This document shows, piece by piece, positions 4,253 through 60,193 of a DNA stretch of 64,000 nucleotides. Under the pieces are notes generated by a model that was given only the letters and a program-made list of their open reading frames with translations, was not told the DNA's origin and made no database searches. Source of the DNA: Hymenopus coronatus. Lineage: Eukaryota; Arthropoda; Insecta; Mantodea; Hymenopodidae. The stretch spans positions 52,164,001 through 52,228,000 of the forward strand of contig CM060883.1 in NCBI GenBank assembly GCA_030762935.1, written 5' to 3'. The position numbers and the translations under genes are program-made. The first letter of the stretch is position 1, and each line of letters opens with the position of its first letter.

Positions 4253-5969
4253 ACTTTATCTACATGTACTATGTACAGTGTTTAGAGAAGGTATTGCATT
4301 CCACCCAAAATTTCGATACCCAGATTTCACCAGAAATACATGTTTTGGGTCCCGCTGAATCCAAAAGAATCTGATGTGCACCATTCACATGACTATCTCC
4401 ATATCCATGCAACAAATAATTCTTAAAAAGCTTATACTTCTATTTACTTTATGCTAATCAGAAAAAAATAGTAGAAATAGTCTAATTACTCGCTTCCTTG
4501 TAAGTAGAAGCGAAATAAGGGAAACCGTAAGTTAAAGTGATAGTCAAAAGCTGGTTGCTATGTCAATGAAGTTCCTTTGTCTATATGGATAGGAGTTGAC
4601 AAGTTAAAATATGAGAAAGGTATACGTTTTTCATACCAGAAACCAAAAATAAGGAATGTCACAAATACGACGAACTCCACGAAAAAAATGTATATAACAT
4701 AAATTGTGTGTTTTAATGTGTTCTACATCTTTTGTGTAGTAAGTTTTTGTCCATCTCTTACGGTTTAGCAGTTATTCAAATTTTAGTAAAATTCATCTAG
4801 AATAAACTACTCTTCAGAGGCTATTCCCAGAAAATTCAAGATATACATTTTATTATTCAGGTAAATATCTTTAATATATTAAATTTTAATCAAAACCGTT
4901 AGAACCATTTTTGAGAAAATCAAAATTTTCGAAAAAAGTTCCATGTAAAGGGTAGTTGGGGGTGGGGGGACTTTTCTCAAAATCTTCGTGTCGCATCCCT
5001 GGAAGATACTAAACTTAAATACCAAGTTTGGTATTTTACCTACTTTTCGTTTTTGAGTTATCGTGTTCACAGACACACGGTCACACACACACACGGACCT
5101 TTTTGTGAAAGTGCTTTTTTTGGATATTGGGGACCCTAAAACATATATTTCCGGTGAAATCTCGGTATCGAATTTGTTGGTGGAATGCAATACTTTCTCT
5201 ATACACTATGTACATAGTGCGTATGGAGAAAGTAAAAAGCATTTTTAGAAAAAGGTCCGTGTGTGCGTGTCTGTGGACAGGATAGCTCAAAAACGAAAAG
5301 ACCGTTGAGTACCAAACTTGGCATTTAAATTTGCTATCTTCCAAGGATACGACACGAACATTTTCAATAAAATCCCCCACCCCCAACTACCCTTTACATC
5401 GAACTATTTTCGAAAATGTTTATGTTCTTAAAAATGGCTCTAACGATTTTGAATTAAAATATGGTATTAAAGATATTTACCTGACAAATAAATTTGGATT
5501 TTCTGGGAGTAGCCTCTGAAGACTACTTTATTCTGGATCAATTTTACGGAATTTTGCATAACTGCTAAACCGTAAGAGATGGACAAAAACTTACCACACA
5601 AAAAATGTAGAGCACGTTAAAACACACAATTTATGTAACATACATATTTTTCGTGGAGTTCGATCGTCTTTGATATATTCCTTGTTTTTGGTTTCAGCTT
5701 TGAAAAACTTAATACTTTTCTCATATAGGAATTTGTCAACTGCTGTCCATACAAACGAAGGAACTTCAGTCACATAGCAACCAGCTCTTGACTATCACTT
5801 TAACCTATGGTACTCCCTTATTTCGCTTCTACTTACAAGGAAACAAGTAATAAGACTATATTTCTGCTAATTTTTTCTCCATTAGCATGAAGTAAATATA
5901 AGCATAAGCTTTTGAACAATAATTTGTTACAGAGATGTAGAGAAAGTCATGTGAATGGAACTCATAAGA
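4253..5969 (-). repeat. Rep-A copy in minus orientation, split by a nested Rep-A
   Basis: The left piece (4253-about 4366) holds the outer end of the family ('actttatctacatgtacta' to 'ccgctgaatccaaaa'). The rest resumes at about 5238 with 'gcatttttagaaaaaggtcc' and runs to 'ggaactcataaga' at 5969. Joining the two pieces gives the normal order seen in unbroken minus copies such as 19500-19885. The whole copy is flanked by T-runs. Confidence 0.85.
4370..5233 (+). repeat. Rep-A, full-length copy nested in another Rep-A
   Basis: The copy runs from TCTGATGTG to GGAGAAAGT, 864 bp. In order it contains the AAGCTTATACTTC block, the CTTACGGTTTAGCAG block, GAGGCTATTCCCAGAAAATTC, GGGTGGGGGGA, GGAAGATACTAAACTTAAAT, a CA microsatellite, TTTCCGGTGAAATCTCGG and the terminal palindrome family CACTATGTACATAGTG. 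A-runs flank it on both sides. The insertion point is the oligo(A) stretch of the host copy. Confidence 0.88.
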
Positions 5970-8329
5970 TTTTTATGTTAGTTTCATATGTGAATTTAAA
6001 GTAAAAGTGAGCGAAGAAGGTGATTTTCACTATTCATTAGGAACAATTTTAAAAGCAGTCCAAGATACACCAATTAATTAATACACTTCCAGAAAAGTCA
6101 AGGCAAGTTTATGTACACAGTTATACGAAATTTAAAGTACTGGTGTGGAGTAATGAAGCAGATGCAAATACTGATCTTTATTTGGCGTATTTTTATAAAA
6201 AGTCGAAATGTTTTAAATATTTGGAGTGAGTATTTCATGGTGAGATCAATTGGTTTCATTAAGTTTACTACTGAAATCAGCAGGCTTGGAAAATATAAAA
6301 TACAAATACAATACTTCTAATAATAGAGAAAATATGCCGCTAGTAAGAATTACAACTTGTAATGGTTGTAGTATTACAATAACTATTAATTGGGAGAGAA
6401 AGCTTTTTGTTTTAATGTATATTATTATCAAGAAAAATAAAAATCAAGTGATCATCAGTAAAGTGTTTTGTACGTTTTGTTGAACCAGTATTTTATGCTT
6501 TGATAGCATGTTTTGTGTTTTCTTAGAATATGAAGTATAGGTTTTGTTGCCTAGAAACTACAAATTAAATTATGATTATTATTATAATAGTAGATAAAAT
6601 ATTGTTTTTGTCTTTCATTGTCATATGAAGTATTTCGCTCCTCAGAAGTAAGGCTTGTACACATTTTGTCTGCTCTGGAAATCCATGACAATAAATATCT
6701 TAATAACCTGAACTACCATGATGTGTATTTGTGTTGCCGTTTGATAAATAAACTGATTATAACAGGGTTGGCCTTGAAACAAGGAAACAATAATTTAGCT
6801 CCAACTAACATAAGTTGTACAGAAGCAGTGATCCATGTTCTTTACGCTGGTGGTCAGATCTTGTGAGATGAAGCGTGGTATATAGCACCTGCAGGTTCAA
6901 AAACCCGAAGAGAATAGCACACCAATAAAATTCACGTAATAGATTTGTGACCCTTTCTGCCACCAGAGCTCACCTTCACCGATAGAAGAGCTAAAAACGT
7001 ATATGCATTAAAGATATTTAAGAAAGCTGTGGATTTTCAATTAAGCGTCATTTCGCAACAATATTCTTAAGCAATGATTAGACCAAAATAGTTCTTTCAA
7101 AAGTAAGTCAAGACAAGTAAATCAAAACTATTCCTTTTAAAGTATACCTTTATTCAATCGAACAAAAGGAGTTACCATTATATATAGGTCTAAATAAAAC
7201 ATGTGTGGCACGTCGTTTTAGAGTCAATTGAAATCGGTGGCATTAATTATTTATGATTTTGTGGTAGTGAAGCAATTGGGTAAATAACGCATCTTATCCG
7301 TTCTACGTTTTTTTTTATCCTATCCTGAATTGTACGACGTGCGTAAATTTACAATCTATTTTTATGGTTTCAAACGAAGTAATTTGTAGTCTTAGTGCTA
7401 TACAGTTGCCATGAAAGGCGTTGAAGTAAACACCTGCTGGGATTGCTCGACGGACTTCCAGCTGATCAGTTAACATTTTGAAAGAAGCGTGGCTAATTTG
7501 CTGTTGCGTACATACGACCTTGGGCCGCTTTGAATTACTCAGTGGTCAAGGACGTCACGAAATCACTGCTATGAAGTGGAGGTCTGTCATACACAAATTA
7601 CGGAACAATAAAACCTCATCTGCTTTTCAGTACTTTATGTCCTCATCGGATAACACGAAGAACCAATTATTCAGTGTGATGGTTGGTATCGGAGAGTTTT
7701 TTGTCTGGTCGTAAACCTTGAGAGCCGTAATGCCGATCGTACTATTATAAAAACCTGATTTGCTTCATTCACATGTCTTTCCCTAGCTGTTCCACAAACA
7801 GATTTTCCTTGCAAAAGATTAAACCGAGATGAGAGTCGTCTTATTGGGAATCACTTCCTGAGAAAAACAGCAAATCCTATGGGAGACGACTTTTGTCCGA
7901 GAACTGCATCAGATCTGAAATTATCTAAGCGCTCCCTCCTCCTTGATAATCTTATTCATTAACGTGTGGCCTTTATGCACGGACACAGAAGCCCGAATTT
8001 TCGCACACTACCGTTTGGCTTCTTATGTCCCAAAAGTCGTCTCTTGTGGCGCCAGCCACATATGCTCCCCTCGATATCTTAGTTAAAAGGAGCATTCCCC
8101 ACACCCTATGGCTACTTTACGAGAGGGGAGACTTACCCAAGAACACTTATGTCTTCACCTAACTGAAAAGCTTTCTGTTACAATGCCAGCCAGCTTAGTA
8201 TTTATCCCACTTTAGGTTTTGAAATATACCATTTACATAAAAGTACATAATACATGCTTAATGTATCAGTTTCAGGAGATCTCAACAACTATATTTTGGG
8301 TGAAATCTTGATACACGTCTTTTTTTTTT
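5970..8329. other. Unassigned AT-rich DNA, 2.4 kb
   Basis: Short open frames occur (for example 6618-6866 and 7478-7714 +), but none has a recognisable domain, a convincing codon pattern or splice signals. I found no inverted-repeat ends or SINE heads. Confidence 0.6.
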
Positions 8330-9146
8330 AGTAAACCTTCTCTATCACGTTTGTACAAGAGCAGGAAATTTTATTCCACCCAAAAGGTCTATATCGATAT
8401 TTCACCGGAAATACATGTTATGAGGCCCCCTGAATCCAAAATAATTTTTAGAGGTCGGCGCGTATGTGTTTTTGCTGTGGGCAGCATAGCTCAAAAAGAC
8501 CGTTAAATACCAAACGAAACTTTTCAAAATAATCCCCCCTTCTTCAACTATCCTTTACATGGAACATTTTTCGAAAATTTTGATTTTCTCAAAACTGGTT
8601 CTAATGATTTTGATTAAAATTTCTTATATTTAAGATATTTACATGACAAATAAAATGTATATCTTAAATTTTCTGGGAATAGCCTCTGAATACATGTTTA
8701 TTCTGGATGAATTTTGTGGAATTTTGCATACCTAGTTAACCGTAAGAGAGAGACAAAAACTTATGCAACAAAAAATGCAGATCTCGTTAAAACGCACAAT
8801 TTATGTTATATGTTATATATATTTCTTAGGGTTGGCCATTTTTTTGATATTCCTTGTTATTAGTTTCAGCTTTAAAATACTTTATACTTTTCTCATACAG
8901 GAATTTGTCAACTCCTGTCCATACATACAAACAAAGGTACTTCAATTACATAGCAAGCAGCGTTTAAAAGATTTTACTATTGCTTTAAACTGTGATACTC
9001 CTTTCGTTCTACTTACAAGAAAGCAAATAATAAGACAATTTCTGCTATTTTTTTCTCGACTAGTATCAAGCAAAAAGAAGAATAAGCTTTTAGCAATAAC
9101 TTATTGCAGAGATGTAGAGAAAGTCATGTGAATGGAACATATCAGA
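8330..9146 (-). repeat. Rep-A copy, near full length
   Basis: This begins with a variant of the palindromic end ('ccttctctatcacgtttgtac') after a T-run and ends 'agaaagtcatgtgaatgg' plus 'acatatcaga'. It lies head-to-tail with the next copy at 9159. The ORF at 8763-9131 is incidental. Confidence 0.85.
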
Positions 9147-9158
9147 TATTTTTAGTAT

Positions 9159-10032
9159 ACTTTCTCTGTAACGTTTGTACAAGAGAAGGTAATTATATTC
9201 CACCCAAAAATTCTATACCCAGATTTAACCGGAAATAAATGTTTTGAGACCCCCTGAATCCAAAATAAGAACTTTTTTTATACATGTCCGTGCATATGTG
9301 TTTTTCCGGTGGACAGCATAGCTTAAAAACGAAAAGCCGGTTAAATACTAAACTTGGCATTTAAATTCAGTATCTTCCAAGGATACGACACCAAGATTTT
9401 CAAGAACCCCCCCCCCCCAAACTACCCTTTAAATGGAACATTACCCTTTACATGGAAAATTTTTAGAATATTTTGATTTTCTCAAAAATGGGTCTAACGA
9501 TTTTGATTAAAATGCCATATGTTTAAAATATTTTTATGGCAAACGAAATCTATGTCTTGGATTTTCTGGGAATAGCCTCTGAAGATCTCTTCATTTTGAT
9601 GACTTTTATACCACTGGAAACCGTAAGAGATAAGACAAGAGCTTGCTACACAAAAAACTGAATTAATACACACAGCTTATGTCGTATACTTTTTTGTGGA
9701 GTTAACCGTTCGAGATATTCGTTGTTATTGGTTTCAGTTTTAAACTACTTAAACTTTACTCAAGCGGAAAGTCTACTTTCGTTTCATCTCTTTTGTTTCA
9801 CTCCCGGTAATGGTAAAAGAACCGAATTTCAATAATTGTTTTACATAGTGATAGCTTTTAAAAGATTTAGCCTAGTATGCTCCCTTATCTCCCCTCTACT
9901 TACAAGAAAACAAATAATAGGACCATTTTACTAATGTTTATCTCGATTTGCATGATGATAAAAGAATACGTTTTTGTAAGGAAAATTTGTTGGTGGAACA
10001 GTTAGAAAGTCATGTGAATGGAACACATCAGA
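9159..10032 (-). repeat. Rep-A copy, full length
   Basis: This runs from 'actttctctgtaacgtttg' to 'ggaacacatcaga'. It contains a C-run (about 9409-9418) at the family's G/C-rich site and a short local duplication of 'taccctttacatggaa' near 9430-9460. It is separated from the preceding copy by only about 12 bp, so the two form a tandem pair. Confidence 0.85.
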
Positions 10033-10332
10033 ACGATTTCTTCCTAAAGGTAACCAATCGGTTGGAAAGGTGAAATAAAAAGGAGAAGAAAAGAAGTTTG
10101 ATTAGAAGCAAGTCGAAGGCAAATTGTAAATCTCAATTCTACCATTATCTTTCCCGCCATTTGTATCAAACCAAGCACAAATGAAACTAATACCTCACAT
10201 CTGCTATTTTTCGTTAAACCAGTAACAAGAATATTTATGTAAAATCAATTATATTCACGTTTATCACTGTTTCTTCAGTCAAACAAGTTTCTACTGCTTG
10301 CTAATGGCTAAATGCAGATTGATAAGCTCTTA
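10033..10332. other. Unassigned AT-rich DNA
   Basis: Nothing is recognisable. Confidence 0.5.
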
Positions 10333-10893
10333 TTTTCTCTTGCACGAATGTGCAATGTACAATGTAAATAGAGCAGATGTATTCATAATTCCAAAAAGTC
10401 TATACCGAGATTTCACCGTAAATAGCCGATATATATAAGCTGATAAACTGGTAAACTGAGATAGACAAAAAGCCTACCACACAAAAAAGTGTAATCTCGT
10501 TAAAATGCATAATTTATGTCATATACATTTCTTTTCTGTAGAGTTAGCCATTTCTGAGATATTCCGTGTTATGCATTTCAATTTTAAACTACTTAATCGT
10601 TTCTCAAACGGGAAGCCATCTTTCTTTTCGTCTCTCTTTTGTTTGACTCCTGGCTTGCAAAGAGAATCGTATTTCAATTGTTTCTTATAGCGACCGGCAT
10701 TTAAAAGATTTGACTATCGCTTTAGCCTAGTACATTCCTTATTTCCCTTCTACTTCCAAAGAAGCAAGTAAAAAGACCAATTCTGCTATTAGTTATCTCG
10801 ATTAATCGTATAATCGTAGATAAAAGAAAAAATCTTTTGTAGGAAAAGTTTATTTGCGGAACAGCATGAGAAAGTCATGTGAATGGAACACAA
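10333..10893 (-). repeat. Rep-A copy with large internal deletion
   Basis: The outer end ('cttgcacgaatgtgcaatg' to 'cgagatttcaccgtaaa') is joined near 10430-10450 directly to the 'gagatagacaaaaagcc' region. This removes the microsatellite and the middle third. The far end 'agaaagtcatgtgaatggaa' is intact. Confidence 0.8.
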
Positions 10894-11022
10894 GTTCTTT
10901 GAAGTTAGCATTGGAACAGTGAATGTTAAATTATCATTAATAGCCACCGCAATAGCTTGATTTTACAGTATGTTTCTGATAATATACTAGATCCAATAAT
11001 ATCCTAATCAGGAGGGGGGAAA

Positions 11023-11501
11023 TCTGATGTGTTAAAATCACATTTCTGTACATCTCTGTAACAAATTATTGTTAAAAAGCTTATTCTACTATCTACATCA
11101 TGCTAATCGAGATAAACATTAGCAGAAATTGTCCTCATTGCTTGGTCTCTTGTAAGTAGAAGGGAAAAAATCGAATTTGTTCTATTCACATGATGTCCTC
11201 TAGCTGTTCGACAAACACACATTTTATTCAAAAGATTAATCTGTTATCTACATCATGCTAATCAAGATAAACATACGCAGAATTAGACTTATTAGCACCT
11301 TGTAAGTAGAAGGGAAATAAAATGCACAGGCTAAAGCGATATCTAGTGCTTTAAAAGCCAGTCGCTATGTGAAACAATTGAAGTTCCAATCTCTTTGCTT
11401 TCCAGGAGTAAAACGAGTAACGAGAAGAAATGTGTCTTCCCGTTTGAGAAAAGTTTAAGTGGCCAAAATTGAAAATAATATCTCGAAAACAGTTAAGGCT
11501 A

Positions 11502-11539
<38 letters not shown>

Positions 11540-11974
11540 TAACAAATTGTGTATTTTAATGGGATCTACATTTTTGTGTAGTACGTTTTTGTAGATCTCT
11601 TACGGTTTGCCAGTTACTTATCATCCAGAATGAAGAGATTTTCAGAGACTATTCCCAGAAAAGCCAAGATATACATTTCGTTTGTCATAAAAATATCTTA
11701 TATACGGTATTTTAATCAAAATCGTTAAGAGGCATTTTTAAGAAAATCAACATGTTCGAAAAATGTTCCATGTAAAGAGTAGTTCGGTGGTGGGGGATTT
11801 TCTTGTGCCCACGGACACACACACACACACACACACACATGGACCTTTTTCTAAAAATGCTTTTTTATTCGGGGGTCTCAAAACATGTATTTCCGGTGAA
11901 ATCTCGGAATCGAATTTTTGGGTGCAATACAATACCTTCTCTATACACTATACACATAGTACGTGCAGAGAAAA
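11023..11974 (+). repeat. Two Rep-A pieces in tandem (5' fragment plus near-complete copy)
   Basis: The first 150 bp (11023-about 11170) are the start of a plus copy. A second start ('ttctattcacatgatgtcctc') then begins and runs through a long A-run (11503-11536), the CA microsatellite (11815-11839) and 'tttccggtgaaatctcgg' to 'gcagagaaaataaaa'. This could be unequal exchange or two insertions. Confidence 0.8.
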
Positions 11975-12547
11975 TAAAACTACATTACTTGAAAGGACAC
12001 TGCTAAATAAGGCTTAATATAAGAGAAATCAATGAAAATAGCCTCATAGGCTCACGTTTTAAGAGGCTGTTCTGTTCTTTAGCTAATAAACTAGTGACCT
12101 ATCACAGGCTTACAAACCTTGAACTACAACGCGACCTCCATCTGTACGGTTTTTATGAGGACAAATTGTTGAAATGTTTACTATTTCATTTGGCATTCCG
12201 TTTTTAACTTTTGCTTTCAGTGATGTAGATTTACGTAAATGGTTATAAATGCAAAGTCAATCTGAGGTTCAACAGTCTGTAAAGTTTTGTGGAGAGAATG
12301 TTTGTGTTGACCTTCATTCGGCATCCTTGTGCTTACCTCTGTAATTATAAGCTATTCCCAAATTTATACCTCTATATGGCGAGTAACATCAATTTAGCTA
12401 CTTCGCAGCCAAACTAGGCAGTTGATTAAATTTAATGTATGATTTTAAGTTCTACCTCTTGGCAGCAGCTTTCACTACCTTAACTTGGTTTTCTTTTCTT
12501 TTGACTGTTTTGTGGAAACAAACATTGGCCTACTAGATACTCATGCT
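11975..12547. other. Unassigned DNA
   Basis: I see no ORFs with domains and no repeat-family matches here. Confidence 0.5.
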
Positions 12548-14360: not shown

Positions 14361-14361
14361 C

Positions 14362-15472: not shown

Positions 15473-16204
15473 CTTCATATCATTCGCTGAAGAAGAAAAT
15501 ACTTGAGAATGTAAACCACATCGTTATGCAAATGCCGGATCACCTTGGTCAGGTCACACTCTGTATCCCAAGTTGGATTTTCACCAAGCGTGTGCAGACA
15601 TACAGCTATCACCTACACATGCGGTAGGAGAAAGTGTTTCGTCTGTCTTTGAAACAGCCTTGCCAGGTGAGTCATGTTTTAACCCAAGGATGACCTTTTA
15701 CAGTTACGCCAACTGTTTGCATACAAGTGGGCGAAAAATAACTGAACCAGTTTCCACATATGAACTGGTAGAAGTTGCAATGAATAACGGTACCTTGAAA
15801 TACCCGATTTGAAATTTTTCTGGACGGAATTGACAAGCAAACATTCAAATGGAGCAGGTACAAATGTGAATTTGTTTCTTTCAACATGTTTGTAATGTCA
15901 AAACGAGTGCTTATATACTCTTTTATAACGCGACTGCGATTACTTCACGAGTTATGTACATATTAATAAGATGCTGGTTTATTGTGAGAAGAAATCACAT
16001 TTCTTGCCTTAATTGAAGCTTCTCGGGAGTACTGCATCTCAAATGCGGTTATTATTCCTGAACATATGCCTTACAGTAATGGTATCCCACAAAAAAGTGT
16101 GTAACATATAATTTCATTGCACAACATCCGCACCTAATAACTGCCACTTTTTCCATTCATCAGATAGTCTTTCCAGTACGTTGGCTGCTGACTGGACTAT
16201 TATT
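15473..16204. other. Unassigned DNA
   Basis: A 79-codon plus-strand frame (15573-15812) has no recognisable domain. No repeat-family match was seen. Confidence 0.5.
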
Positions 16205-16211: not shown

Positions 16212-17063
16212 TCTGATGTGTGCCATTCACATGACTTTCTCCATATCCCTGCAACAAATAATTCTTAAAAAGCTTATATTTCTATTTACTTTATGCTAAT
16301 CAGAAACAAATAGTAGAAATAGTCTAATTACTCGCTCCCTTGTAAGTAGAAGCGAAATAAGGGACAATCATAGGTTAAAGTGATAGTCAAAAGCTGGTTG
16401 CTATGTCAATGAAGTTCCTTTGTCTATATGGATAGGAGTTGACAAGTTCCTGTATGAGAAAAGTATACGTTTTTCATAGCAGAAACCAAAAATAAGGAAT
16501 GTCACAAAAACGACGAACTCCACGAAAAAAATGTATATAACATAAATTGTGTGTTTTAATGTGCTCTACATCTTTTGTGTAGTAATTTTTTGTCCATCTC
16601 TTACGGTTTAGCAGCTATTCAAAATTTAGTAAAATTCATCCTGAATAAACCACTCTTCTGAGGCTATTCCCAGAAAATTCAAGATATACATTTTATTTGT
16701 CAGGTAAATGTGTTTAATATACGAAACTTTAATCAAAATTGTTAGAGCCACTTTTGAGAAAATCAAAATTTTCGAAAAAAATTCCATGTAAAGGGTAGTT
16801 GGGGGTGGAGGGATTTTTCTCAAAATCTTCGTGTCGCATCCCTGGAAGATACTAAACTTAAATACCAAGTTTGGTATTTTACCTACTTTTCGTTTTTGAC
16901 ACACGGACACACACACACACACACGGACCTTTTTGTGAAAATGCTTTTTTTGGATATTGGGGACCCTAAAACATATATTTCCGGTGAAATCTCGGTATCG
17001 AATTTTTTTGTGGAGTGCAATACTTTCTCTATACACTATGTACATAGTGCGTATGGAGAAAGT
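16212..17063 (+). repeat. Rep-A, full-length copy
   Basis: This runs from TCTGATGTG to GGAGAAAGT, 852 bp, and is bounded on each side by exactly seven A (16205-16211 and 17064-17070), a possible oligo(A) target duplication. The CA microsatellite is at about 16909-16923, with 'acacggac' following. It ends with the palindrome ACTATGTACATAGT. A 152-codon minus-strand frame spans most of it but is judged incidental. Confidence 0.9.
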
Positions 17064-17229
17064 AAAAAAATATTTCCAAAACACAACGGATTATTGCTTT
17101 AAGAATTTGAAAGGAATATGTGATGAATGCGAAAAAGTGGCAGTTATTAGGTATGGATGGTGTACAGTGAAATTATGTTTTACACACTTCTTGTGGTATA
17201 CCATTACTCTAGGATATATATTCAAACCT

Positions 17230-17443
17230 CAATTGTTCATAGTGATTAGCTTTTAAAAGATTTGACTATCGCTTTAGCATGATGTATTCCTTTATTTCTC
17301 TTCTACTTACAATGAAGCAAGTAATAAAACCAATTCTTTTAATGTTTATCTCGATTAGTATGATGTAGATAAAATAATAATCTTTTGTACGAATAGTTTA
17401 TATTTGGAAGAGCTAGAGAATGTTATGTGAATGGAACACAAGA
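17230..17443 (-). repeat. Rep-A fragment
   Basis: Only the TCTGATG-side third of the family is present in minus orientation ('gatttgactatcgctttag' to 'ggaacacaaga'), followed by T-rich DNA. Confidence 0.75.
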
Positions 17444-17874
17444 TTGTTTTCTCTAAGGATTTCTATTGAAGATATTTAGATTAAATTAAAACAAATTGTG
17501 GTAGAGTAAAATGTGACAAAATATTGAAAACACTTGGTTAAAACTCAATGTTTAGAAACGTAATCTATGTAAAGGAGCTTTGATATAGAAATGTTACGTT
17601 GTAGAACATCTCACCATAGTTTGCTATTCAGAGGTGAAATCGAGATAGATTGCTAAGACCTGGTTTTGTTATATGGATGTATTTACGGTGCAAGGCTGGA
17701 AATTAAGTTTACACACGTATGTGTGAATTTCTGACATCTCTGAAAATCGTGTTGAACAGCAAATGTGGAGATCCTATAAGTCGAGCTCCACTGAAAATAA
17801 ATTCCTTATTCCTACTATTCATTCAGGCATTCGTTTTATCCATAGTTTGTTTTTTGCGGAATCTTTAAACAAAA
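17444..17874. other. Unassigned AT-rich DNA
   Basis: Nothing is recognisable. Confidence 0.5.
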
Positions 17875-18138: not shown

Positions 18139-18840
18139 TCTGATGTGTTCCATTCGCATGACTTTCTCTACATCTCTGCAACAAATTATTCTTAAAAAGC
18201 TTATACTTCTATTTACTTCATGCTAATCAGAAAAAATAGCAGAAATAGTCTTATTACTTGCTTCCTTGTAAATAGAAGCCAAATAAGGGAGTACCATAGG
18301 TTAAAGTGATAGTCAAAAAGCTGATTGCCATGTCACTGAAGTTCCTTTGTTTGTATGGACAGCAGTTGACAAATTCCTGTATGAGAAAAGTATAAGTTTT
18401 TTATAGCAGAAACAAAAACAAGGAACGTCTCAAAAACAATGAACTCCACGAAAAAAATGGATATAACATAAATTGTGTGTTTTGACGTGCTCTACATTTT
18501 TTGTGTAGTAAGTTTTTGTCCATCTCTTAAGGTTTAGCAGTTATTCAAAATTCCGTAAAATTCATCCAGAATAAACTACTCTTCAGAGGCTATTCCCAGA
18601 AATTTCAAGATATACATTTTATTTGTCAGGTAAATGACTTTAATATATGATATTTTAATCAAAATCGTTAGAACCATTTTTGAGAAAATCAAAATTTTCG
18701 AAAAAAGTTCCATGTAAAGTGTAGTTGGGGGTGGGGGGATTTTTCTCAAAATCTTCGTGTCGCATCCCTGGAAAATACTAAACTTAAATACCAAGTTTGG
18801 TATGTTACCGACTCATCGTTTTTGAGTTATCGTGTTCACA

Positions 18841-18891
<51 letters not shown>

Positions 18892-19036
18892 TCACTCACG
18901 CGCGGACCTTTTTGTGAAAATGCTTTTTTTTTTTTTTTTTTTGGATACAGGGGACCCTAAAACATATATTTCCGGTGAAATCTCGGTGTCGAATTTTTGG
19001 GTGGAATACAATACTTCTCTATCCCTATGTGCATTG
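18139..19036 (+). repeat. Rep-A copy inserted at a SINE poly(A) tail, 3' end truncated
   Basis: This begins at TCTGATGTG directly after the SINE-1 A-run. It has an expanded CA microsatellite (about 18839-18887) and a T-run (about 18924-18941), and ends in 'ttctctatccctatgtgca' without the full palindromic terminus. Confidence 0.88.
18839..18890 (+). repeat. (CA)n microsatellite within Rep-A
   Basis: About 24 CA units followed by CTCA units. The same place in other copies holds 4-12 CA units, so this is a hypervariable site of the family. Confidence 0.95.
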
Positions 19037-19499
19037 GACGACTTTAAATGCGCGACATTTCGGCTTCAATTTATCACATTGATTGCCTCGGTGGAACATT
19101 GCCTGTATACATAAAAATAAATACATTTTAAATAGCAGTTTTTGGTCATCTCAATTGTTTTCGTAAGCTCTCGCATCAAATAGAAGTTAATAGCCCATAA
19201 ATAATATTGACAATTGATCTATCCAGACGTAACAGCTTTATTGAAGACCAGAGTGAATAAATGTGTCAGTACTACATTCGATAGATATCGTTGGCATAAA
19301 TAGTTATTTTAAACGACTACTGTTGCATACTATAAAATTTAAAGGACAACTGCATTTTCAATGAGAAATGAAATGGTACAGTATATAATGTGTAAATATT
19401 ATTTGTACATTTCACAAGAACAGTGTATTAGTTAACGTATCTATCGTGATATCTGCTCATTAAAATTGATAGAATCTTCCAAGGTTTGGAGCTATTTTT
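19037..19499. other. Unassigned AT-rich DNA
   Basis: Nothing is recognisable. Confidence 0.5.
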
Positions 19500-19885
19500 A
19501 CTTTCTCTAGCACGTATGTACAATGCACATAGTAGATAGAGAAGGTATTGTATTCTACCAAAAATTCGATGTCAAGATTTTTTCGGAAATATGTTTTGAG
19601 GTCCCCTGAGTCCGAAAAAAGCATTTTTAGAAAAAGGTTTATGTGTGTGTCTATGTCTATGGACAGCATAATTCAATAACTACACGACCGTAAAATACCA
19701 AACTTGGTATTTATATTTAGTATCTTCCAAGGATGCGGCACGAATATTTCAAGAAAATTCCCCAACCATAAACTACCCTTTACATGGAAGAAATTTTGAT
19801 GTTTTTCTCAAAAATGGTTAACGATTTTGATTAAAGTAACGCATCAAGGATATTTACATCAGAAATAAAAATATTATATAAAAGG
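19500..19885 (-). repeat. Rep-A fragment, left arm of an inverted pair
   Basis: This has the palindrome-side end ('actttctctagcacgtatg') and the middle to 'gatatttacatcagaaata'. It is followed immediately by an inverted Rep-A fragment, so 19500-20342 can fold back on itself. Confidence 0.8.
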
Positions 19886-20180
19886 CATTTATTAGAGGCT
19901 ATTCCCAGAAAATTCAAGATATACATTTTATTTGTCATGCAAATATCTTTAATAAACGGCATTTTAATCAAAATCGTTAGAGCCATAATAAAATAATAAT
20001 AAAAAAAAATATTAAAAAAATATAAAATAAAATTAAAAAAAATAAAATTTTCCCATATAAAGGTTAGTTTCGGGTGGCAATTTTCCTCAAAATGTTCGTG
20101 TCGCATCCTTGGAAGATACTAAATTTAGATACCAAGTTTGATATTTTATTGACTTTTCATTTTTTAGTTATCGTGTTTAG

Positions 20181-20211
<31 letters not shown>

Positions 20212-20711
20212 TGCGCGCATACACGCACTTTTTTCTAAAAATGTTTTTTTTTTAGACTCGGAGGACCCTAGAACGTGCATATCCGGCGAAATTTTAATAT
20301 CGAATTTTTGGTTGGAATGCAATGCTTTCTCTATACACTATACAGGGTGTTAATGAACTACGTCGAAATAATTTGCGAGATTGTGCACGTGACTGATATA
20401 AGTAATTTGAGATCGGCGATTCATGATCCCCGGATAAACATAACGCAGCTATATAGCGTTAAACGAGTGGGTATCAGGTGCGATTTATAGCAAAGCAGGT
20501 TGATAAAATGGCTTAGAATGTTTTTAAAACTGCTGCTCGAGTATAGAAATATCGATTTTTAGCATCTCGTAACTAGCGTTCTCAAGATTTAATGTCGCAA
20601 AAATCTGTAAAATCTCGAACTAGTCACTTGACAGTACGACACTGAGCATTCATTAGCTACGTTCTTGAGTTATGTAACCTACCGTGGAGACGTTTTTCTT
20701 TTTTTTTCCCC

Positions 20712-27279: not shown

Positions 27280-27283
27280 AAAA

Positions 27284-27347
<64 letters not shown>

Positions 27348-27512
27348 ACCTATGTCTGCCGTGGAGGTGTGTTCTGAACACATACCTCAAAAGCGATAAT
27401 TCGGTTAAGTACCAAACGTGGTATTTTTTTATTATTCTATTATCTTTCTTCATACCAAACTGCCGTTTACATGGAAGATTTTACGTAATTTACGATTTTC
27501 TCAAAAATGACT
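27280..27512 (-). repeat. Rep-A fragment with expanded (TC)n
   Basis: This is the middle of Rep-A in minus orientation ('taagtaccaaacgtggtat', 'tttctcaaaaatgactaatg'). At the place where other copies carry TG/CA repeats it has about 25 TC units (27286-27335) followed by TG units. Confidence 0.75.
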
Positions 27513-27522
27513 AATGTTTTTT

Positions 27523-35300: not shown

Positions 35301-35725
35301 AATGTGAAGGTTGAGTGGACCCTCCTCACTACCCCTTTCGTGCGACACTAGGTGCGGAGCCGTTCCGATGTCATGTACACCCACGTAGCTCAATGGAGCC
35401 GGGTCCCCACGAGCGGCTCGGCGACCGCGAGTGGCTGGGTTGATCGGGCGGACCCGGCGTGTTACCACTGTCTGGGGCCCGCTGTAATCAACCACAAGTC
35501 CCCTGAATCCACGCTGACTCCGTTGAGGCGGCGTGGCCTATAGTGGGGAGCCACTGGCGGTTTTTCCAGTGGTAGGGGCATAAAGTCGGGCCTTCCATCG
35601 GTGAAACTGTCGCATACCAGTCAATAGTGATAGTCGGAGGGTAACTCCTCTGACGTACTCCTTGAGATCAGGCCTGTAGCGGGTGCTCCTGGCCGGCACA
35701 GACCGAAAGATTTAGGTGTCTTTTC

Positions 35726-36904: not shown

Positions 36905-36956
36905 ACCCACCGGTCCCGGGCAACCATTAATTCGCTCCCTTACCGGCGCACGCATA

Positions 36957-39900: not shown

Positions 39901-40617
39901 TTTACTTTTCGTCTTTTACAACAGTGTTCGATTTTTACAGCTGAGCTATTTGGTATTCTTCAGGCTCCTTTTTATGTGCGGCGACATGCGCTACCACTCA
40001 CTGCAATATGTTCAGATTCTTTGAGTGCTCTCCAAAGTCTTCGTCCGCTGTATACTTACCACCCAATCATATAGCGGATCCAAGATTGCCTTCACTCGCT
40101 TTCGGCAGTAGGTCTCCGTGTAACGTTTTTGTGGGTACCTGGTCACACGGGAGTAGCGGGAAACGAAAAAGCTGATTCTGCTGCCAAGAGATCAATTACA
40201 TCATCCAGGATATTTTCTTCTGCCGTTCCCGCTAGTGATCTTAAGGTGGTGTTGCGAGGGACCATTTATTCTCGTTGGGCACTACTGGTAACAAACTGCG
40301 GGTAATCAAAGCACTCCCTGGATTCTGGAAAACCTCTTGTCACACCTCCCGCCGAGAAGAGGTCATTTTATGTCGCCAGCGTATCGGACACTTAACTTAG
40401 CCACTGCCATTTATTGCGAGGAGAGCAAACTCCAGTTTGTCGGTGCGGCGCAACCTTGACAGTGAGACACGTTTTAACCCAGTGTCAATTTTTAGCAGCC
40501 ACGCGACTGTCGTTGAATTTCCCCAGTGGCATGCGTGACATTTTAGCAGACCGTCCGACTGCTGTAGAACGGGTTTTATCTTTTATTCGACAGTGCCCTA
40601 TGATTGGACGTGTCTAA
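36957..40617 (+). pseudogene. ORF2 of the non-LTR retrotransposon (EN-RT-RNase H), broken
   Basis: Pieces appear in the expected order. The AP endonuclease N-terminus (36957-37343) has ILQWNIRGL and CLQETKL; the frame shifts near 37260. The second half of the endonuclease (37211-37867) has LVGDFNAHHPPWG and SDHFPVVI, then a TAA at 37865. Reverse transcriptase (37974-39023) has APGPDAIHASLL, YRPISLTSC, QYGFRRYRSTIDHL, motif A as VFFYLEKAYD (first Asp replaced by Tyr), motif B NGVPQGSALS and motif C FVDD. The RT thumb (39143-39652) has KFLGLLFD. RNase H (39514-40074) has IYTDGSK, FTAEL and CSDSLSAL; after a TAG it has VPGHTGVAGNEKAD. The C-terminal CRCGATLTVRHVLTQC motif is at 40414-40617. These lesions make it inactive. 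Confidence 0.92.

Positions 40618-40862: not shown

Positions 40863-40912
<50 letters not shown>
40618..40912 (+). other. 3' UTR and (TC)n tail of the retrotransposon
   Basis: About 250 bp of non-coding sequence is followed by about 23 TC units (40866-40912). The simple repeat sits where non-LTR elements carry their terminal tail, followed by TAAGGT. Confidence 0.6.
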
Positions 40913-40914
<2 letters not shown>

Positions 40915-42711: not shown

Positions 42712-43700
42712 TCTATATATATAGAAAGTCGTGTTAGTTACACTATTTATAGTTCAAGAATGGCTGAACCGATTTGGCTGAAAATCGGTGGGGAGGTAGT
42801 TGAGAACCAGGAGACGGACATATGATACTTTTTATCCCGTTTCCGTGGGACGTTACATAAAACGTGGTACAGCAAAACGCAACAGACAAAAAAAAAAAAC
42901 AACAACAACAACAACAAAAAACGCATTGTTGCCTATGGTGTTTGTTTCGAGTTTCTATTAGCTTATTGTGCCGATCTTATCATTAACAATGCCGCGACCA
43001 AGACTGGCGAATCTTTCCCGGCAAAGGATTCGAAACATTGCGAATGACATTGCACGTGAAGAGCAACTATCCAATTAAATGTTTAAACTCCTTGGATGTG
43101 CCTGCCTTACCACCGCACAATTTACGACTAAAGGTTGGCTCCGTAGTAATCATGCTTCGAAACATAAACCAACCAAAACTGTGCAACGGAAGGCGTTTGG
43201 TGGTAAGTAAATTGATGAACAATGTGATTTACGCGACGATACTCAAAGGAAAATTCGAAGGTGAGGAAGTTCTCATTCCGAGGATCCCGATGATCCCAAC
43301 CGATTTGCCGTTTTGAGTTTAAACGACTTCAATTTCCGATCCGTCTTGCATTCGCCATGACCATTAACAAATCACAAGGCTAATCCTTGAAAATTTGTGG
43401 TCTGAATCTAGAAAATCCATGTTTTTCCCCATGGTCAATTATATGTGGCATGTTCACGGGTCGGAAGACATCTGCGTTATTTGCTCTTGCGCCTGATAAA
43501 AAAACAAGAAATGTCTATCACAAGGTGCTTCACTGAAGAGTGCAACCCATGCACAAAATCACGGCCAATAAATAATCATTAAAATACTTGATTTTTTTGT
43601 ATTTATATTTATTATCCTAATAAAAAATTGAACTTAATAAAATCCAAAATCTGCTCATTTATTGCTTCTAAGGCGGAAGAAAGTTCGCCGGGTCAGCTAG
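42712..43700 (+). mobile_element. Internally deleted Helitron with both termini
   Basis: The 5' end starts TCTATATATATAGAAAG directly after an A. The characteristic 'accgatttggctgaaaatcgg' subterminal region and 'atactttttatcccgtttcc' follow. The 3' end has a short GC hairpin (GGCG...CGCC, 43672-43689), seven spacer bases and CTAG (43697-43700) directly before a T. TC...CTAG between A and T is the Helitron signature, with no target duplication. Inside are the first codons of a Rep/helicase (ATG at 42989) joined to the helicase C-terminus, so about 90 percent of the coding region is deleted. It could only move with help from an autonomous relative. Confidence 0.9.
42989..43540 (+). pseudogene. 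Helitron Rep-helicase, fused N- and C-terminal remnants
   Basis: The N-terminal start MPRPRLANLSRQRIRN (42989 onward) is typical of Helitron proteins. From about 43060, in another frame, comes the Pif1-like helicase C-terminus: LNSLDVPALPPHNLRLKVGS, IMLRNINQPKLCNGRRLV and LIPRIPMIPTDLPF. A one-base insertion near 43312 shifts the frame. It then reads FKRLQFPIRLAFAMTINKSQ plus Gly (helicase motif, 43351-43380), where a TAA at 43381 replaces the usual Gln codon. Degenerate sequence follows to 'rnvyhkvl'. The functional protein would nick and unwind DNA for rolling-circle transposition; this remnant cannot. Confidence 0.88.
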
Positions 43701-44227
43701 TATATTTATATACTTTTTCTACAGGACAGTTTGCTATTCTTTTCGTTTATTTTATTATGTTTTTTGAGGGGATTTTAATTTAGTCCCTATATATATATAA
43801 ATTAAGAGAAGAAAGATGAATGTTTCACTCCTTTCTATCTCTGTCCGTTTCTATTTTACATTATTTAGCCTAAACCTATGCCCATTAGCAAATGGTTGGT
43901 GGACTGTTACCTGGAATTAAGCTAGCTCGCTTTGCCTTAATTATTTAAGTTACAACTCGCTTTTATGCATGTTTTTACCGCTAAATATTCACAACTATTT
44001 TACATTGCTTTCTATACAATTATAATATTATATACAGTTCCACTTTTATATGCTTTGTGAGCATATGGTATGTCCTCCTATACAATGTTCAAGAACTAAC
44101 GTTCCATACTGTTTAAATGCAATCGCGAGAAATAACTCAAACTTCGAAAGAACTTTAATGAAGTGTTAAGTTCAAACAATTAATAACGGATGTATAGGAA
44201 ATAATTTATGATGCAAAATGTTATTTA
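43701..44227. other. Unassigned AT-rich DNA
   Basis: Nothing is recognisable. Confidence 0.5.
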
Positions 44228-44430
44228 AAATGAACTGTGTGCTTTAAAGAGCCATTTTTTTATGTATTTATTTATTTATTTGCTGTACATTTTTGTCTGT
44301 TGCTTAAGGGTTGACAGTTATACAAACATGTATGAAATTCCTTACCGATGAAAAAATGTATTCTCTAAACATTCAAGATAGGTACATATATATATTCTAT
44401 TCATCGCGTGGTAGTTTTAAGTGAATTACT
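44228..44430 (+). repeat. Old, diverged Rep-A fragment
   Basis: 'gtgtgctttaaagagcc', 'gtacatttttgtctgttgct', 'gacagttatacaaa' and 'cattcaagataggtacat' follow the Rep-A order with many substitutions. This is much older than most copies in the window. Confidence 0.55.
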
Positions 44431-45661: not shown

Positions 45662-46535
45662 TCTGATGTGTACCATTCACATAACTTTCTCTATATCCCT
45701 GCAGCAAATTATTCTTAAAAAGCTTATACTTCTATTTACTTCATGCTAGTCAGAAAAAAAAAATTAGCAGAAATAGTCTTATTACTTGCTTCCTTGTAAG
45801 TAGAAGCGAAATAAGGGACTACCATAGGTTAAAGTGATAGTGAAAAGCTGGTTGCTATGTCACTGAAGTTCCTTTGTTTGTATGGACAGGAGTTGATAAA
45901 GTCCTGTAGGAGAAAAGTATAAGTTTTCCAAAGCAGAAACCAAAAACAAGGAATGTCTCAAAAACGATGAACTCCACGAAAAATAGTATAGAACATAAAT
46001 TGTGTGTTTTAACGTGCTCTACATTTTTCTTCTGGTAAGTCTTTGTCCATCTCTTACGGTTTAGCAGTTATTCAAAATTCCGTAAAATTCATCCACAATA
46101 AAGTACTGTTCAGAGGCTGTTCCCAGAAAATTCGAAATATATATTTTATTTGTCAGGTAAATAGCTTTAATATACGATATTTTAATCAAAATCGTTAGCC
46201 ATTTTTGAAAAAATCAAAATTTTCGAAAAAAGTTCCATGTAAAGGGCAGTTAGGGGTGGGGGGATTGTTCTCAAAATCTTCGTGTTGCATCCCTGGAAGA
46301 TACTAAACTTAAATACCACGTTTGGTATTTTACCAACTTTTCGTTTTTGAGTTATCGTGTTCACAGACACGGACACACGAACACACACACACACACGGAC
46401 CTTTTTCCGAAAATGCCTTTTTTTAGTTAAAGGGGATCTTAAAACATATATTTCCGGTGAAATCTCGGTATCGAATTTTTGGGTGGAGTGCCATACCTTC
46501 TCTATACCCTATGTACATAGTGCGTATGGAGAAAG
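45662..46535 (+). repeat. Rep-A, full-length copy
   Basis: This runs from TCTGATGTG to GGAGAAAGC, 874 bp. A-runs precede (45656-45661) and follow (46537-46541) it. The CA microsatellite is short and contains interruptions (about 46366-46396). It is one of the copies closest to the family consensus. Confidence 0.9.
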
Positions 46536-46621
46536 CAAAAATACTTAAGAAAAAGTTATAGAATTTAACTGAGCATTTAACTAGAATCATGTAAACCATT
46601 AAGAAATAATAGTTATTTTGT

Positions 46622-47431: not shown

Positions 47432-47672
47432 CGCATGCCCAAGGTCGTGGGTCCAAACCTGGCGGAGGACGATGGATTTTTTTCGGGCGTAAAAATCCTT
47501 AGCATGGCTTCCTTCGGAAGGGAAGTAAAGCCGTTGGTCCCGTGTCGTAGATTTACGGCACGTAAAAGAACCTCAAGCGTGATAGAGAGGCCTCTGAGCA
47601 AAATTAAGCGGTCTTTCACGCCAATGGGACGCTGAGAACCAGAGTAGTTAAAGAGCGTCCATAAAAAACACG
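47432..47672 (+). repeat. SINE-5 copy
   Basis: The B box-like region is 'cgtgggtccaaacctggcgg'. The body is 'aaaaatccttagcatggctt', 'aaagccgttggtcccgtgtc', 'cggcacgtaaaagaacctca' and 'ttaagcggtctttcacgcc', ending 'agcgtccataaaaaaca'. The A-box part is lost. Confidence 0.8.
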
Positions 47673-47971
47673 CCATTTACATTTCCCCGCATAAAATACA
47701 ACGTTCCAGTTCATTGCTCCTCATCCATTTCAAAAGTATTGCACCTGTTCTCACCAAGGCCAATTCTCCCTTCTCTTGTTTATTACATATGCCTATCTGC
47801 ACAGCATTAACTACATTTAAGCAGAAGCACTCTGCCCCGCTGAATCTGAGCCCTGGTCCGTTCTTTTGATACACCTAGTTGTCTTATTTTCACCCGAGAA
47901 GCTTCTCTTGCATATACTAATATAAATGATGAAATATTCAGGGATGGCGTCTAAAACTCCGCATTATTTTT
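47673..47971. other. Unassigned DNA
   Basis: Nothing is recognisable. Confidence 0.4.
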
Positions 47972-48811
47972 ACTTTATCTATCACGTATGAACACTGTAC
48001 ATGGTGGGTAGAGAAGGTAGATATTGTATTGCACACAAAATTCAATACCGAGATTTCAATGGAAATGTATGATTTGAGGACACTTGAATTAAAAAAGGTA
48101 TTTTTAGAAAAAAGGTCCAATTTTGTGTGTGTGTATGTGTGGACAGGCATAACTCAGAAAACGAATAGTTTAAATGCCAACCTTAGTATTCTAGTTCAGT
48201 ATCTTCCAAGACTGCGACACGAAGATTTTCAGGAAGATAATCTTACCTACCCCAAACTACCCTTTAGACGGAACATTTTTCGAAGTCTTCTTTTTTCTCA
48301 AAATTGGCTCTTAACGATTTTTATTAAAATTCCCTGTATTAAAGACATTTATTTACATGGCAAATAAAATGTATAACCAGAATTTCTTAGGAGTAGCCCA
48401 TGAACTTCTCTTTATTCTCAATGAATTTTGCATAATTAGTAAACTGTAAGAGATAGACAAACATTTACTACACAAAATGTATGTAAATCTCATTAAAATA
48501 CACAATTTATCTCATATACAGTTTTTTTCTAAAATTATTTCGGAGATATGCCTTGTTATTGGTTTTAAAATGTGCAACACTAATGTTCATGCTGGTCAAG
48601 CAAAGAAAAGCTAGTTTCAATTGCATCATATAGCGACTGAATTTTAAAACATTGGTTTTAGCCTGGTTCATTCTCTTCTTTCCCTCCTACTTGGAGAGAA
48701 AACCATTGCTGCTAATGTTTATCTCGATTAGCATAAAGAAGATAGATAGGCGTTTGTAAGAATAATGTGTTGTAGAATAGGTAGAGAAAGTCATGTGAAC
48801 GGAACCATTCA
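47972..48811 (-). repeat. Rep-A, near full-length copy
   Basis: This runs from 'actttatctatcacgtatg' (preceded by T-rich sequence) to 'gtcatgtgaacggaacc'. The last bases of the TCTGATG end are degraded and, unlike other copies, no T-run follows. Confidence 0.83.
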
Positions 48812-48914
48812 GCGCGAGCCGCCACTGTTGTGCTCTTTATCAAGTCATTAAGACAAGGACATTAGAGAACAAATATTAAGCTATCAAAGGTATAAAAATG
48901 GAAATGGAGTTTTA

Positions 48915-49190
48915 TTTATGGACGCTGTTTAACTACTGTAGTTATCAGCGACCCATTTTATGCTGGGAGAGAAAGACCGCTCAATTTTGCTGAGAGGCCC
49001 CTTTATCAGACTTAAAGTTCTTTTACGAGTCGTAAATGTACATTACGGGACCAACGGCTTTATTTACCTTCCAAAGGAAGCCATGTCAAGGATTTTTACG
49101 GTCGAAAAAAGTCATCGCCTTCCTCCGGTTTTGATCTCGCGACCTTGGATACAATAAACTAGCATTTTAACCACTACACCACGGAGGGCG
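48915..49190 (-). repeat. SINE-5 copy with tRNA-like head
   Basis: On the minus strand this begins 'gccctccgtggtgtagtggt' (A-box region TGGTGTAGTGG) and passes 'ggtcgcgagatcaaaaccgg' (degenerate B box). The body matches the other SINE-5 copies and ends 'agcgtccataaa'. It is the copy that shows SINE-5 is tRNA-derived. Confidence 0.8.
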
Positions 49191-50725: not shown

Positions 50726-51602
50726 TGTATGTATCTATTTATTTGCGTTTTCTCATTATCGGCATTTAAACCTCACGTTTTCATAACTTATTTTTACGCA
50801 AACGTTTAGTTATTTGCTTATTTATACTGTTATATGTATTATTCTTCTGTAACATCCTTGTTTTATGGGAATATTTCTGTATAATTTGTAATTTCATGAC
50901 TAATGTAATAAACAAATTACATTTAAAAGGCATGAAAGATTATCTTCGTGGATATACCTTCGCTGAATATAGGGATTAAACTCATAAAAATATATAGGTT
51001 GCTGTGTAACCACGAGGCTATGAAGACCTCTATGATTGGCCTACCTTTCCAAGTTGCATGTCCCTGTTCCAAACTCTTATTTAAGAAAGAGGGTTCTTTG
51101 AAGTGCCGGTCAATAAATTGTTTTTGCTATGAACGGAATTAGTAAATTTTAAGTTCGCATTTTTTTAGGAGGGAAATGTTGTGGGACATCTTTGAAATTA
51201 CCATACTGATGACTGATTTATCATGACAACCTAACCTAGCCACTTTTTTGTGTAAACATCTTAGTTTGTTATTGATGTGATTGTGAATATTTTGTTGTTG
51301 TATTTGGTTATTATTTAAACTTGTTTACAATGCCACGACACAGTAATAGTGTTTTCAGAAAGCGGAAGAATTTTGGAATACTAAAAGAAATCACTGGAAA
51401 TAATGTTGATATTACAGATCCACATTGTTGAAATAAACACTGATGTAGGTAAAAGTAATAGTGATGATGTGAAATGTGTGTACAAAAGTCCATATAATGT
51501 GCTGTAAAATTTGAAGTAGATACAATAAATAGTTTCTGAGAAAATGTTCCTTGAAAGCTTAAATTTTAACATTGTCATTATGTGCCTTACGGGTCCCCTT
51601 AA
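50726..51602. other. Unassigned AT-rich DNA
   Basis: Nothing is recognisable; frames are short. Confidence 0.5.
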
Positions 51603-51996
51603 GTACTTTAAAACTGAAACCAATAACTCGGAATATCTCGAAAAGGTTAACTTTACGAAAATTGTTTATGACATAAATTGTGTTTTAATGAGATCTACCT
51701 TTTTTGTGTAGTAAGCATTTATCTATCTCTTACGGTTTACCAGTTATAAAAGTATAACTGGTAAACATAATTATACAAAAACCATCCAGAATGAAGAGAT
51801 ATCCAGAGGCTGTTCTCAGAAAATTCAAAATCTACATTTCGTTTGTCATATCTACTTCAAAAGAAGCAAGTAATAAGATTAATTCTGGCAATGTTTATCT
51901 TGATTAGCATAACGTAGATAAAAGAATACTCTTTTGTAAGGAAAGTTTGTTGGTGGAACAGCTAGAGAAAGTCATGTGAATGGAACAGATAAGATT
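51603..51996. repeat. Chimeric Rep-A: plus-strand middle joined to minus-strand end
   Basis: 51603-about 51850 is plus orientation ('aaactgaaaccaataactcgg' to 'tctacatttcgtttgtcata'). About 51852-51996 is the TCTGATG-side end in minus orientation ('ctacttcaaaagaagcaag' to 'ggaacagataaga'). A small extra inverted repeat (ACTGGTAAAC / GTTTACCAGT) lies near 51736-51765. The junction suggests a fold-back or deletion within an inverted pair. Confidence 0.75.
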
Positions 51997-52049
51997 TTTC
52001 ACATTCATGGATTACTTAATCCAATAATCAAGCGATATTAACTTGCGGT

Positions 52050-52415: not shown

Positions 52416-52526
52416 TCCGTTTTCTGATAATAGTAATATGTACTTTTATGTAGCACTAATTATTTAAACTGTATTCATGATATGCATAAGTAAACTTACC
52501 TTAATAATATGTTTCTTTCTTTGCAG

Positions 52527-57640: not shown

Positions 57641-57689
57641 ACCTCGGTCAACAAGGTCAGCTTTTTCTTTACGAATTCAGTTTAGATGT

Positions 57690-59341: not shown

Positions 59342-60193
59342 ACATTCTCTAGCCCCGTTTGCACAATGTACATAGTGGATAGATAAGGTATTATATTCTA
59401 CCAAAAAATTAGATGCCAAGATTTCATTGGAAATGTATGTTTTGGGGTCCTCTGAGTCCGGAAAAGGCAGTTTTAGAAAAAGATCCGTGTGTGTTTGTGT
59501 ACAACATAGCTCATAAAGACCGTTAAATACCAAACTTGGTATTTAGGTTTGGTATCTTCCAAAGATGCGACACGAAGATTTTCCTTTACATGGGAAAATG
59601 TCCGAACATTTTGATTTTCTCAAAAATGGCTGTAATGATTTTGATAAAAATACCGTATATTAAACATATTCACATCCCAAATAAAATGTATATCTTGAAT
59701 TTTCTGGGAGTAGCCTCTGAAGAACCTCTTTATTCTGGATGAATCTTGCCGAAATTGCTTATCTGCTAAACCATAAGAGACAAGACATAAACTTGCTGCA
59801 CAAAAAATGTAGATCTTGCCAAAACACACAATTTATGTTATTTACTTTTTTTTGTGTGGAGGTAACCGTTTCCGAGGTATTCCTTGTTATTGGTTTCAAT
59901 TGTAAAGTACTTACACTTTTCTTTGACAGGAAGTGTCCGTTTTTCTTTTGTTCTGGTCTTGACCAAGCAAAGAAGCGATTTGTATTGACAAATGTATAAC
60001 GACAGTTTTTAAATCATATGACTGTCGGTTTAGCCTAGTGTATTTCCCTTAGTTGCCTCCTACTTATAAGGAACTAAGTAATAAGAACATTCTGCTAATG
60101 ATTATCTCGATTAGCATGGTGTAGAAAAAAGAATAATCTTATGTAAGAAGTTTGTAGAACAGCTAGAGAAAGTCATGAGAGTGTAACACAAGA
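59342..60193 (-). repeat. Rep-A, full-length copy
   Basis: This runs from 'acattctctagccccgtttg' (preceded by TTTT) to 'gagagtgtaacacaaga' (followed by a run of T), 852 bp. A gap removes the GGGGTGG block near 59580. Confidence 0.87.

Follow-up and report, generated by a model that had tools for sequence, protein, structure and literature searches.

The DINE-1 elements of Drosophila are described as having 13-bp subterminal inverted repeats (subTIRs), the 5' one accompanied by a partial inverted repeat, and a microsatellite in block A (PMC2374699). In the same description, a hairpin lies a few nucleotides past the 3' subTIR, targets are TT and there is no significant open reading frame (ORF). 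The HINE elements of mites, as reported in PMC4067079, carry palindromic subTIRs of 12-15 bp, which stand 2-4 nt inside the 5' end and 38-60 bp inside the 3' end. Their 3' palindrome is 8-35 bp from the end and their targets are T-rich. The rule given there for placing HINE elements in one family is 11 identical bp. For both groups, the accounts describe targets that are T-rich or TT and show no clear modification (PMC4067079, PMC2374699). With no terminal repeats, clear duplications or proteins to go by, elements of this kind readily end up classed as 'unknown'. The end rule described for canonical Helitrons is 5' TC and 3' CTRR. We focused on a repeat, Rep-A, in 64,000 nucleotides of the mantis Hymenopus coronatus (assembly GCA_030762935.1, contig CM060883.1, positions 52,164,001 to 52,228,000; hereafter, the window). 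Judged against published descriptions, Rep-A is very probably a new family of non-autonomous Helentrons (HINE / DINE-1-like), a class already known.

A first-pass annotation had proposed a repeat family of about 24 copies, making up about 23% of the window. We searched with a family profile (nhmmer) built from eight copies, which match by construction, and compared the window with itself by BLAST. The profile search identified 32 segments covering 15,428 of 64,000 bases (24.1%). There were 0 matches in the reversed window. Scores are below 35 bits for five segments. The segments comprise 11 near full length, four that form two split copies and 17 fragments. Some of these fragments may be pieces of the same copy. 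The family is confirmed as real, with copies on both strands, and 13 near-complete copies with 17 fragment segments agree with the earlier count. Eleven of 12 proposed start coordinates coincide exactly with core starts; 8330, the last of them, corresponds to 8335 here. Rep-A is better read in the orientation opposite to that of the first-pass annotation. Elements are ~0.81-0.94 kb long. The near-complete copies are as follows.

4370-5233, minus strand: young copy, lying within the older copy 4253-5969 at its A/T-run; the A-run letters on either side (4363-4369, 5234-5238) unassignable
4253-4362, plus strand: older interrupted copy, left part (5' end)
5239-5969, plus strand: older interrupted copy, right part, reaching the 3' end
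8335-9146, plus strand: first copy of a head-to-tail pair (profile match, core ends)
9159-10032, plus strand: second copy of the head-to-tail pair (profile match, core ends)
11171-11975, minus strand: copy, found as two pieces
16212-17063, minus strand: copy, young subfamily, between two inverted 117-bp arms
18139-19036, minus strand: copy, young subfamily, 5' end truncated within the palindrome
27523-28369, plus strand: copy (profile match)
29004-29940, minus strand: copy (profile match)
31821-32715, plus strand: copy, example for sub-features (profile match)
45662-46536, minus strand: copy, young subfamily
47972-48810, plus strand: copy, 3' end degraded in and beyond the hairpin
59342-60193, plus strand: copy (profile match)

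Identity among 12 near-complete copies is 0.69-0.94, with a median of 0.74 (66 pairwise comparisons). The copies at 4370, 16212, 18139 and 45662 form a young group with mutual identity of 0.89-0.94. Hence, Rep-A appears to have been active over a long time, with rather recent copies included. Sequence phrases from Rep-A were not found in the literature, which is weak evidence that the family is unpublished. Likewise, no literature on Helentrons together with cockroaches was found. An exact match to a 29-nt end motif in viral contigs, or to a 27-nt one in prokaryotic contigs, was not detected. Given the viral and prokaryotic nature of these collections, this negative weighs little.

Briefly, Rep-A reads 5' T(n)-ACTTTCTCTAGC...inverted copy...TG microsatellite...TAGAGAAAGT-C-hairpin-CAGA-T(n) 3'. 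The 5' start consists of Ts and then, as a rule, ACTTTCTC plus TAGC, CATA or TACA. The 3' finish is TAGAGAAAGT-C-ATGTG-AATGGAA-CACAT-CAGA, followed by Ts. In the example copy, these parts lie as follows.

31821-31832, plus strand: 5' subTIR ACTTTCTCTAGC, 3 Ts from the flank
31859-31867, plus strand: partial inverted copy of the 5' subTIR, AGAGAAGGT, making the 5' palindrome
32682-32693, plus strand: 3' subTIR GATAGAGAAAGT
32695-32711, plus strand: 3' hairpin ATGTG-AATGGAA-CACAT, then CAGA and a T-run

The shared sequence halts at the same T-runs (11 near-complete copies aligned; 19 + 15 ends inspected). Both ends are kept in 11 of the 13 near-complete copies. A 29-nt end motif occurs 10 times with at most 3 mismatches, while 0.00 occurrences were expected (100 shuffles), and this bears out the constant ends of the first-pass annotation. 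Ends at which the shared sequence stops elsewhere are truncated or degraded; they include 18139 at the 5' end and 47972, 10892 and 46793 at the 3' end.

The subTIR is 12 bp long, with first and last repeats mutually inverted. Counts of subTIRs, T-runs and flank repeats are based on nine copies with ordinary ends; the tandem pair and the copies 18139 (cut at 5') and 47972 (degraded at 3') were excluded. Within these nine of the 13 near-complete copies, the two repeats match at 12/12 positions in one, 11/12 in four and 7-10 in four. Positions 9-12 of the subTIR vary among copies, yet the mean match of a copy's own subTIR pair is 10.0/12, compared with 9.0 when 3' ends are swapped among copies (permutation p = 0.017; nine copies). 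The 11 identical bp of the HINE family rule are present without mismatch in one of the nine single copies. The 3' subTIR begins 32-34 nt, and ends 20-22 nt, from the 3' end, in each case plus Ts. The earlier statement that Rep-A has no clear terminal inverted repeat (TIR) is correct for the outermost ends. It does not extend inwards, where the 12-bp inverted repeats are found in subterminal position.

In the example copy, the 5' subTIR is repeated in part and in inverted orientation ~38 bp on, creating a 5' palindrome. Its positions pair in 92.9% of 112 cells (14 rows), against no more than 60.0% in slid controls. As single-stranded DNA, the palindrome folds with z = -5.6 in a young copy and -1.9 in an older one (two copies folded). 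The 3' hairpin has a 5-bp stem and a 7-nt loop. It is 1 nt beyond the subTIR and 4 nt plus Ts from the end. Pairing is observed in 85.6% of 90 cells (18 rows), with slid controls reaching at most 58.9%.

In the interior, a TG/CA run of at least three units is present in 9 of 12 copies tested. In eight copies the near side of the run is 136-152 bp away from the 5' core end; in the ninth the distance is 218 bp. Only 6 bp are spanned by two of these runs, and copy 18139 is cut at its 5' end. The longest stop-free stretch of the consensus is 109 codons. Ten ORFs overlapping copies gave no Pfam match at E 0.01. Five patterns detected no RNA polymerase III A or B box on either strand of the consensus, and no copy contains a tRNA. 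There was no Rfam match to Rep-A at gathering scores.

We then consider the insertion sites. At the 5' side, copies are flanked by 3-10 Ts, and the subTIR begins after 4-10 Ts in eight of nine copies and after 3 Ts in one. At the 3' side there are 1-9 Ts, with at least four in seven of nine. At random positions the mean T-run is 0.5 and the probability of four or more is 0.017. The tandem pair departs from this pattern, its cores being directly bordered by 0-1 T. Its units, 8335-9146 and 9159-10032, are separated by a 12-bp T-rich spacer. They have in common an unusual 5' end, with AGTA before the subTIR and a shortened palindrome. The units are only 74% identical and each is overall nearer to another copy. 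A recent rolling-circle dimer was ruled out on these grounds and, for the same reasons, the pair is not used as mechanistic evidence. It may be a mosaic.

The older copy 4253-5969 is split at its A/T-run by the young copy 4370-5233; the sequence on the two sides belongs to one copy. Hence, the boundaries of the young copy are fixed. Among 12 family members (inserted copy included), the A-run at this site has at least six As in nine, and is shorter or interrupted in three. The site now has 12 A/T-run letters (one a G), compared with 6-8 in most other copies; hence, about five letters were added. These may be either the element's own Ts or a target duplication. Fixed ends, both orientations and the insertion of one copy into another support the earlier proposal that Rep-A is a mobile element.

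According to the first-pass annotation, homology past both proposed ends would mark the copies as pieces of a larger known element. The 150 bp outside 22 ends were compared (the tandem pair and the nested pair each counted as one), and flanks of different copies did not match. Only at copy 16212-17063 did one flank match the other, in inverted orientation. These arms, 16059-16175 and 17108-17224, are 83% identical over 118 columns and are ~36 and 44 bp outside the copy. They have no further match in the window apart from the adjoining family fragment. Because the arms are private to this copy, they do not enlarge the Rep-A family. A larger element around the copy was considered and dropped, and the arms were taken to be a host feature. 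A palindromic element may have received the copy at its centre.

Rep-A carries the marks of Helentrons: a 5' subTIR with an inverted copy at the 3' side, a 3' hairpin, T-rich targets, an internal microsatellite and no coding sequence found. The likeness to DINE-1 / INE-1 of Drosophila, as described, covers subTIRs of 12-13 bp, the partial inverted repeat by the 5' subTIR and a microsatellite in the 5' block (PMC2374699, PMC4067079). It also covers the hairpin a few nucleotides after the 3' subTIR, T targets, the lack of a notable ORF and high copy number. However, the subTIR sequence differs, and the microsatellite is GTCY-rich in DINE-1 but TG in Rep-A. The hairpin stem is 5 bp in Rep-A and 7-11 in DINE-1, and the T-runs targeted by Rep-A are longer. 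This comparison is by description. HINE-Mo of Metaseiulus occidentalis, in the account of PMC4067079, shares the palindromic subTIR near the 5' end, a short 3' palindrome near the end, T-rich targets and an ambiguous number of terminal Ts. Its sequence differs, and the 3' subTIR of Rep-A is somewhat nearer the end. The 5' T-run before the subTIR is longer in Rep-A than the 2-4 nt of the mite HINE. HINE-Mo has a known autonomous Helentron partner, unlike Rep-A. Lepidopteran Hel-2, from its description in PMC4344730, resembles Rep-A in its 5' inverted repeat, subterminal inverted repeats, microsatellite and 3' hairpin. In contrast, Hel-2 has TC/CTAG ends and A/T flanks, and Rep-A has neither. 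The assignment to an unknown class is thus not supported, because the reversed element has the published end anatomy of DINE-1 / HINE. By anatomy, Rep-A is a Helentron member whose autonomous partner is unproved. Nearly a quarter of the window would thereby be assigned to a known rolling-circle class.

Several observations weigh against this assignment. Covariation in the 5' palindrome is not above that of shuffles (137 of 500 were as high). In the 3' hairpin there were 0 pairs with compensatory changes (500 of 500 shuffled pairings as high), and folding was no better than in shuffles (z of -0.6 and -0.4 in two copies folded). Hence, the case for the 3' hairpin is made by conservation and position. 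The 3' subTIR reaches the published distance of 38-60 bp only when measured from its far side, and otherwise lies closer to the end. A flank repeat of 4-5 bp that includes a non-T base is found in four of nine copies, compared with 11% of 72 mispaired flanks. A target duplication made of Ts only cannot be told from Ts owned by the element; the authors of the HINE study were likewise uncertain over terminal Ts (PMC4067079). Among the 30 of 69 window ORFs scanned, there was no autonomous Rep/helicase/endonuclease partner. The sole helicase fragment in these ORFs is a Pif1 2B helicase domain at 42987-43313 (E 4.7e-15). As an autonomous partner it was ruled out, since it is situated between Helitron-type ends, TC... 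and ...CTAGT, rather than Rep-A ends, and since the profile search placed no family segment between 32725 and 44174.

Because no autonomous partner was seen, we infer rolling-circle movement rather than observe it. The anatomy and the nested insertion are observed directly; the enzymology suggested below follows the model for Helentrons. A Rep/helicase/endonuclease supplied in trans, by an autonomous Helentron elsewhere in the genome, would bind the subTIRs. This protein would nick at the T-rich 5' end of Rep-A. Rolling-circle synthesis would displace one strand, the 3' hairpin would terminate displacement, and the single strand would insert into another T-run. The exact ends of Rep-A are known; therefore, the autonomous partner can be sought via its termini.

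The most serious competitor is a cut-and-paste DNA transposon of the miniature inverted-repeat transposable element (MITE) type, whose ends would be degenerate and whose T-rich target duplication would measure ~5 bp. The T-runs on either side would suit such an element, and the 12 letters at the nested site, against 6-8 in most other copies, are what a TTTTT duplication would also leave. The non-T flank repeats in four of nine copies, noted above, point the same way. However, a further four of the nine have no such repeat and one has a repeat of 2 bp. The inverted repeats are also asymmetric: one is at the very 5' end, the other is 20-22 nt inside the CAGA end, and no TIR is present at the outermost ends. 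Furthermore, cut-and-paste elements do not feature a hairpin outside an internal repeat. We consider a MITE origin improbable. A variant of the Helentron reading is slightly less so, though still unlikely. Here, the subTIRs of a copy would change together across subfamilies (CCATA-type in the young, TAGC/TACA-type in the older), keeping the ends matched (the permutation result given above, on nine copies), and insertion may, in contrast to other Helentrons, duplicate ~5 target Ts. If true, ends might be matched by one protein binding both, or by end exchange during rolling-circle movement, for example.

A derivative of a canonical Helitron (5' TC, 3' CTRR, insertion between A and T) would share the 3' hairpin, the lack of a consistent duplication and the absence of detected coding sequence. 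Read in the orientation of the first-pass annotation, Rep-A even starts with TC. Such a derivative is nevertheless very improbable. Rep-A has no CTRR end, finishing instead in T-runs with CAGA-T(n) at the 3' side; its targets are T-runs, not A^T, and subTIRs are present. An element with canonical ends in the same window (42712-43701) looks quite different. The A-runs at both ends, again in the earlier orientation, could recall the tails of a short interspersed element (SINE) or other retroposed sequence. This we regard as the least credible origin, with hardly any probability: no A/B box (five patterns), tRNA or Rfam match was detected, target duplication is not consistent, and 11 of 13 near-complete copies retain two ends rather than one. 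Assignment of Rep-A to the non-autonomous Helentrons remains the favoured interpretation.

The remaining family segments, all profile matches, are listed below.

2383-2656, plus strand: old fragment
7747-7821, minus strand: weak fragment, 23.6 bits
8188-8357, minus strand: weak fragment, 15.2 bits, may be chance
10329-10899, plus strand: probably a single internally deleted copy (model 10-101 and 467-890)
11020-11169, minus strand: 3' fragment adjoining copy 11171-11975
17238-17450, plus strand: 3' fragment
19493-19870, plus strand: 5' fragment
19892-20344, minus strand: 5' fragment, inverted relative to its neighbour 19493-19870
27273-27520, plus strand: internal fragment adjoining copy 27523-28369
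30830-31383, plus strand: probably a single internally deleted copy (model 127-328 and 536-894)
44174-44411, minus strand: weak fragment, 27.2 bits
46619-46789, plus strand: 3'-side fragment
51599-51851, minus strand: internal fragment
51847-52003, plus strand: 3' fragment
60440-60648, plus strand: weak fragment, 33.5 bits

At 19493-20344, the two 5' fragments face each other in inverted orientation, with breaks near model positions 397 and 431.

Other elements are present in the window. The sequence at 42712-43701 is a canonical Helitron-like element or fragment, which starts with TCTATATATATAGAAAGTCGTG, retains the Pif1 2B helicase domain mentioned above and ends with a GC-rich hairpin and CTAGT. 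We take this sequence to be typical of Helitrons. Positions 35666-40600 contain a non-long-terminal-repeat (non-LTR) retrotransposon, in which endonuclease and reverse transcriptase domains were identified; a (TC)n tract lies beyond it at 40867-40913. Zinc knuckles were read by eye in its ORF1, which has no Pfam match. For the reverse transcriptase, named records among the best 120 of 716 matches are mostly spider reverse transcriptases of X-element/BS type. Some of the same 120 carry labels of bivalve symbionts or bacterial metagenome-assembled genomes, which probably hold animal DNA. A SINE-like repeat is present in three copies, 47439-47678, 48902-49148 and 30669-30826; relative to the first copy, identity is 80% for the second and 87% for the third. 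The first two flank the Rep-A copy 47972-48810 in opposite orientations. Finally, ARAGORN, in its bacterial setting, predicts a tRNA-Val (gac) at 60699-60772.

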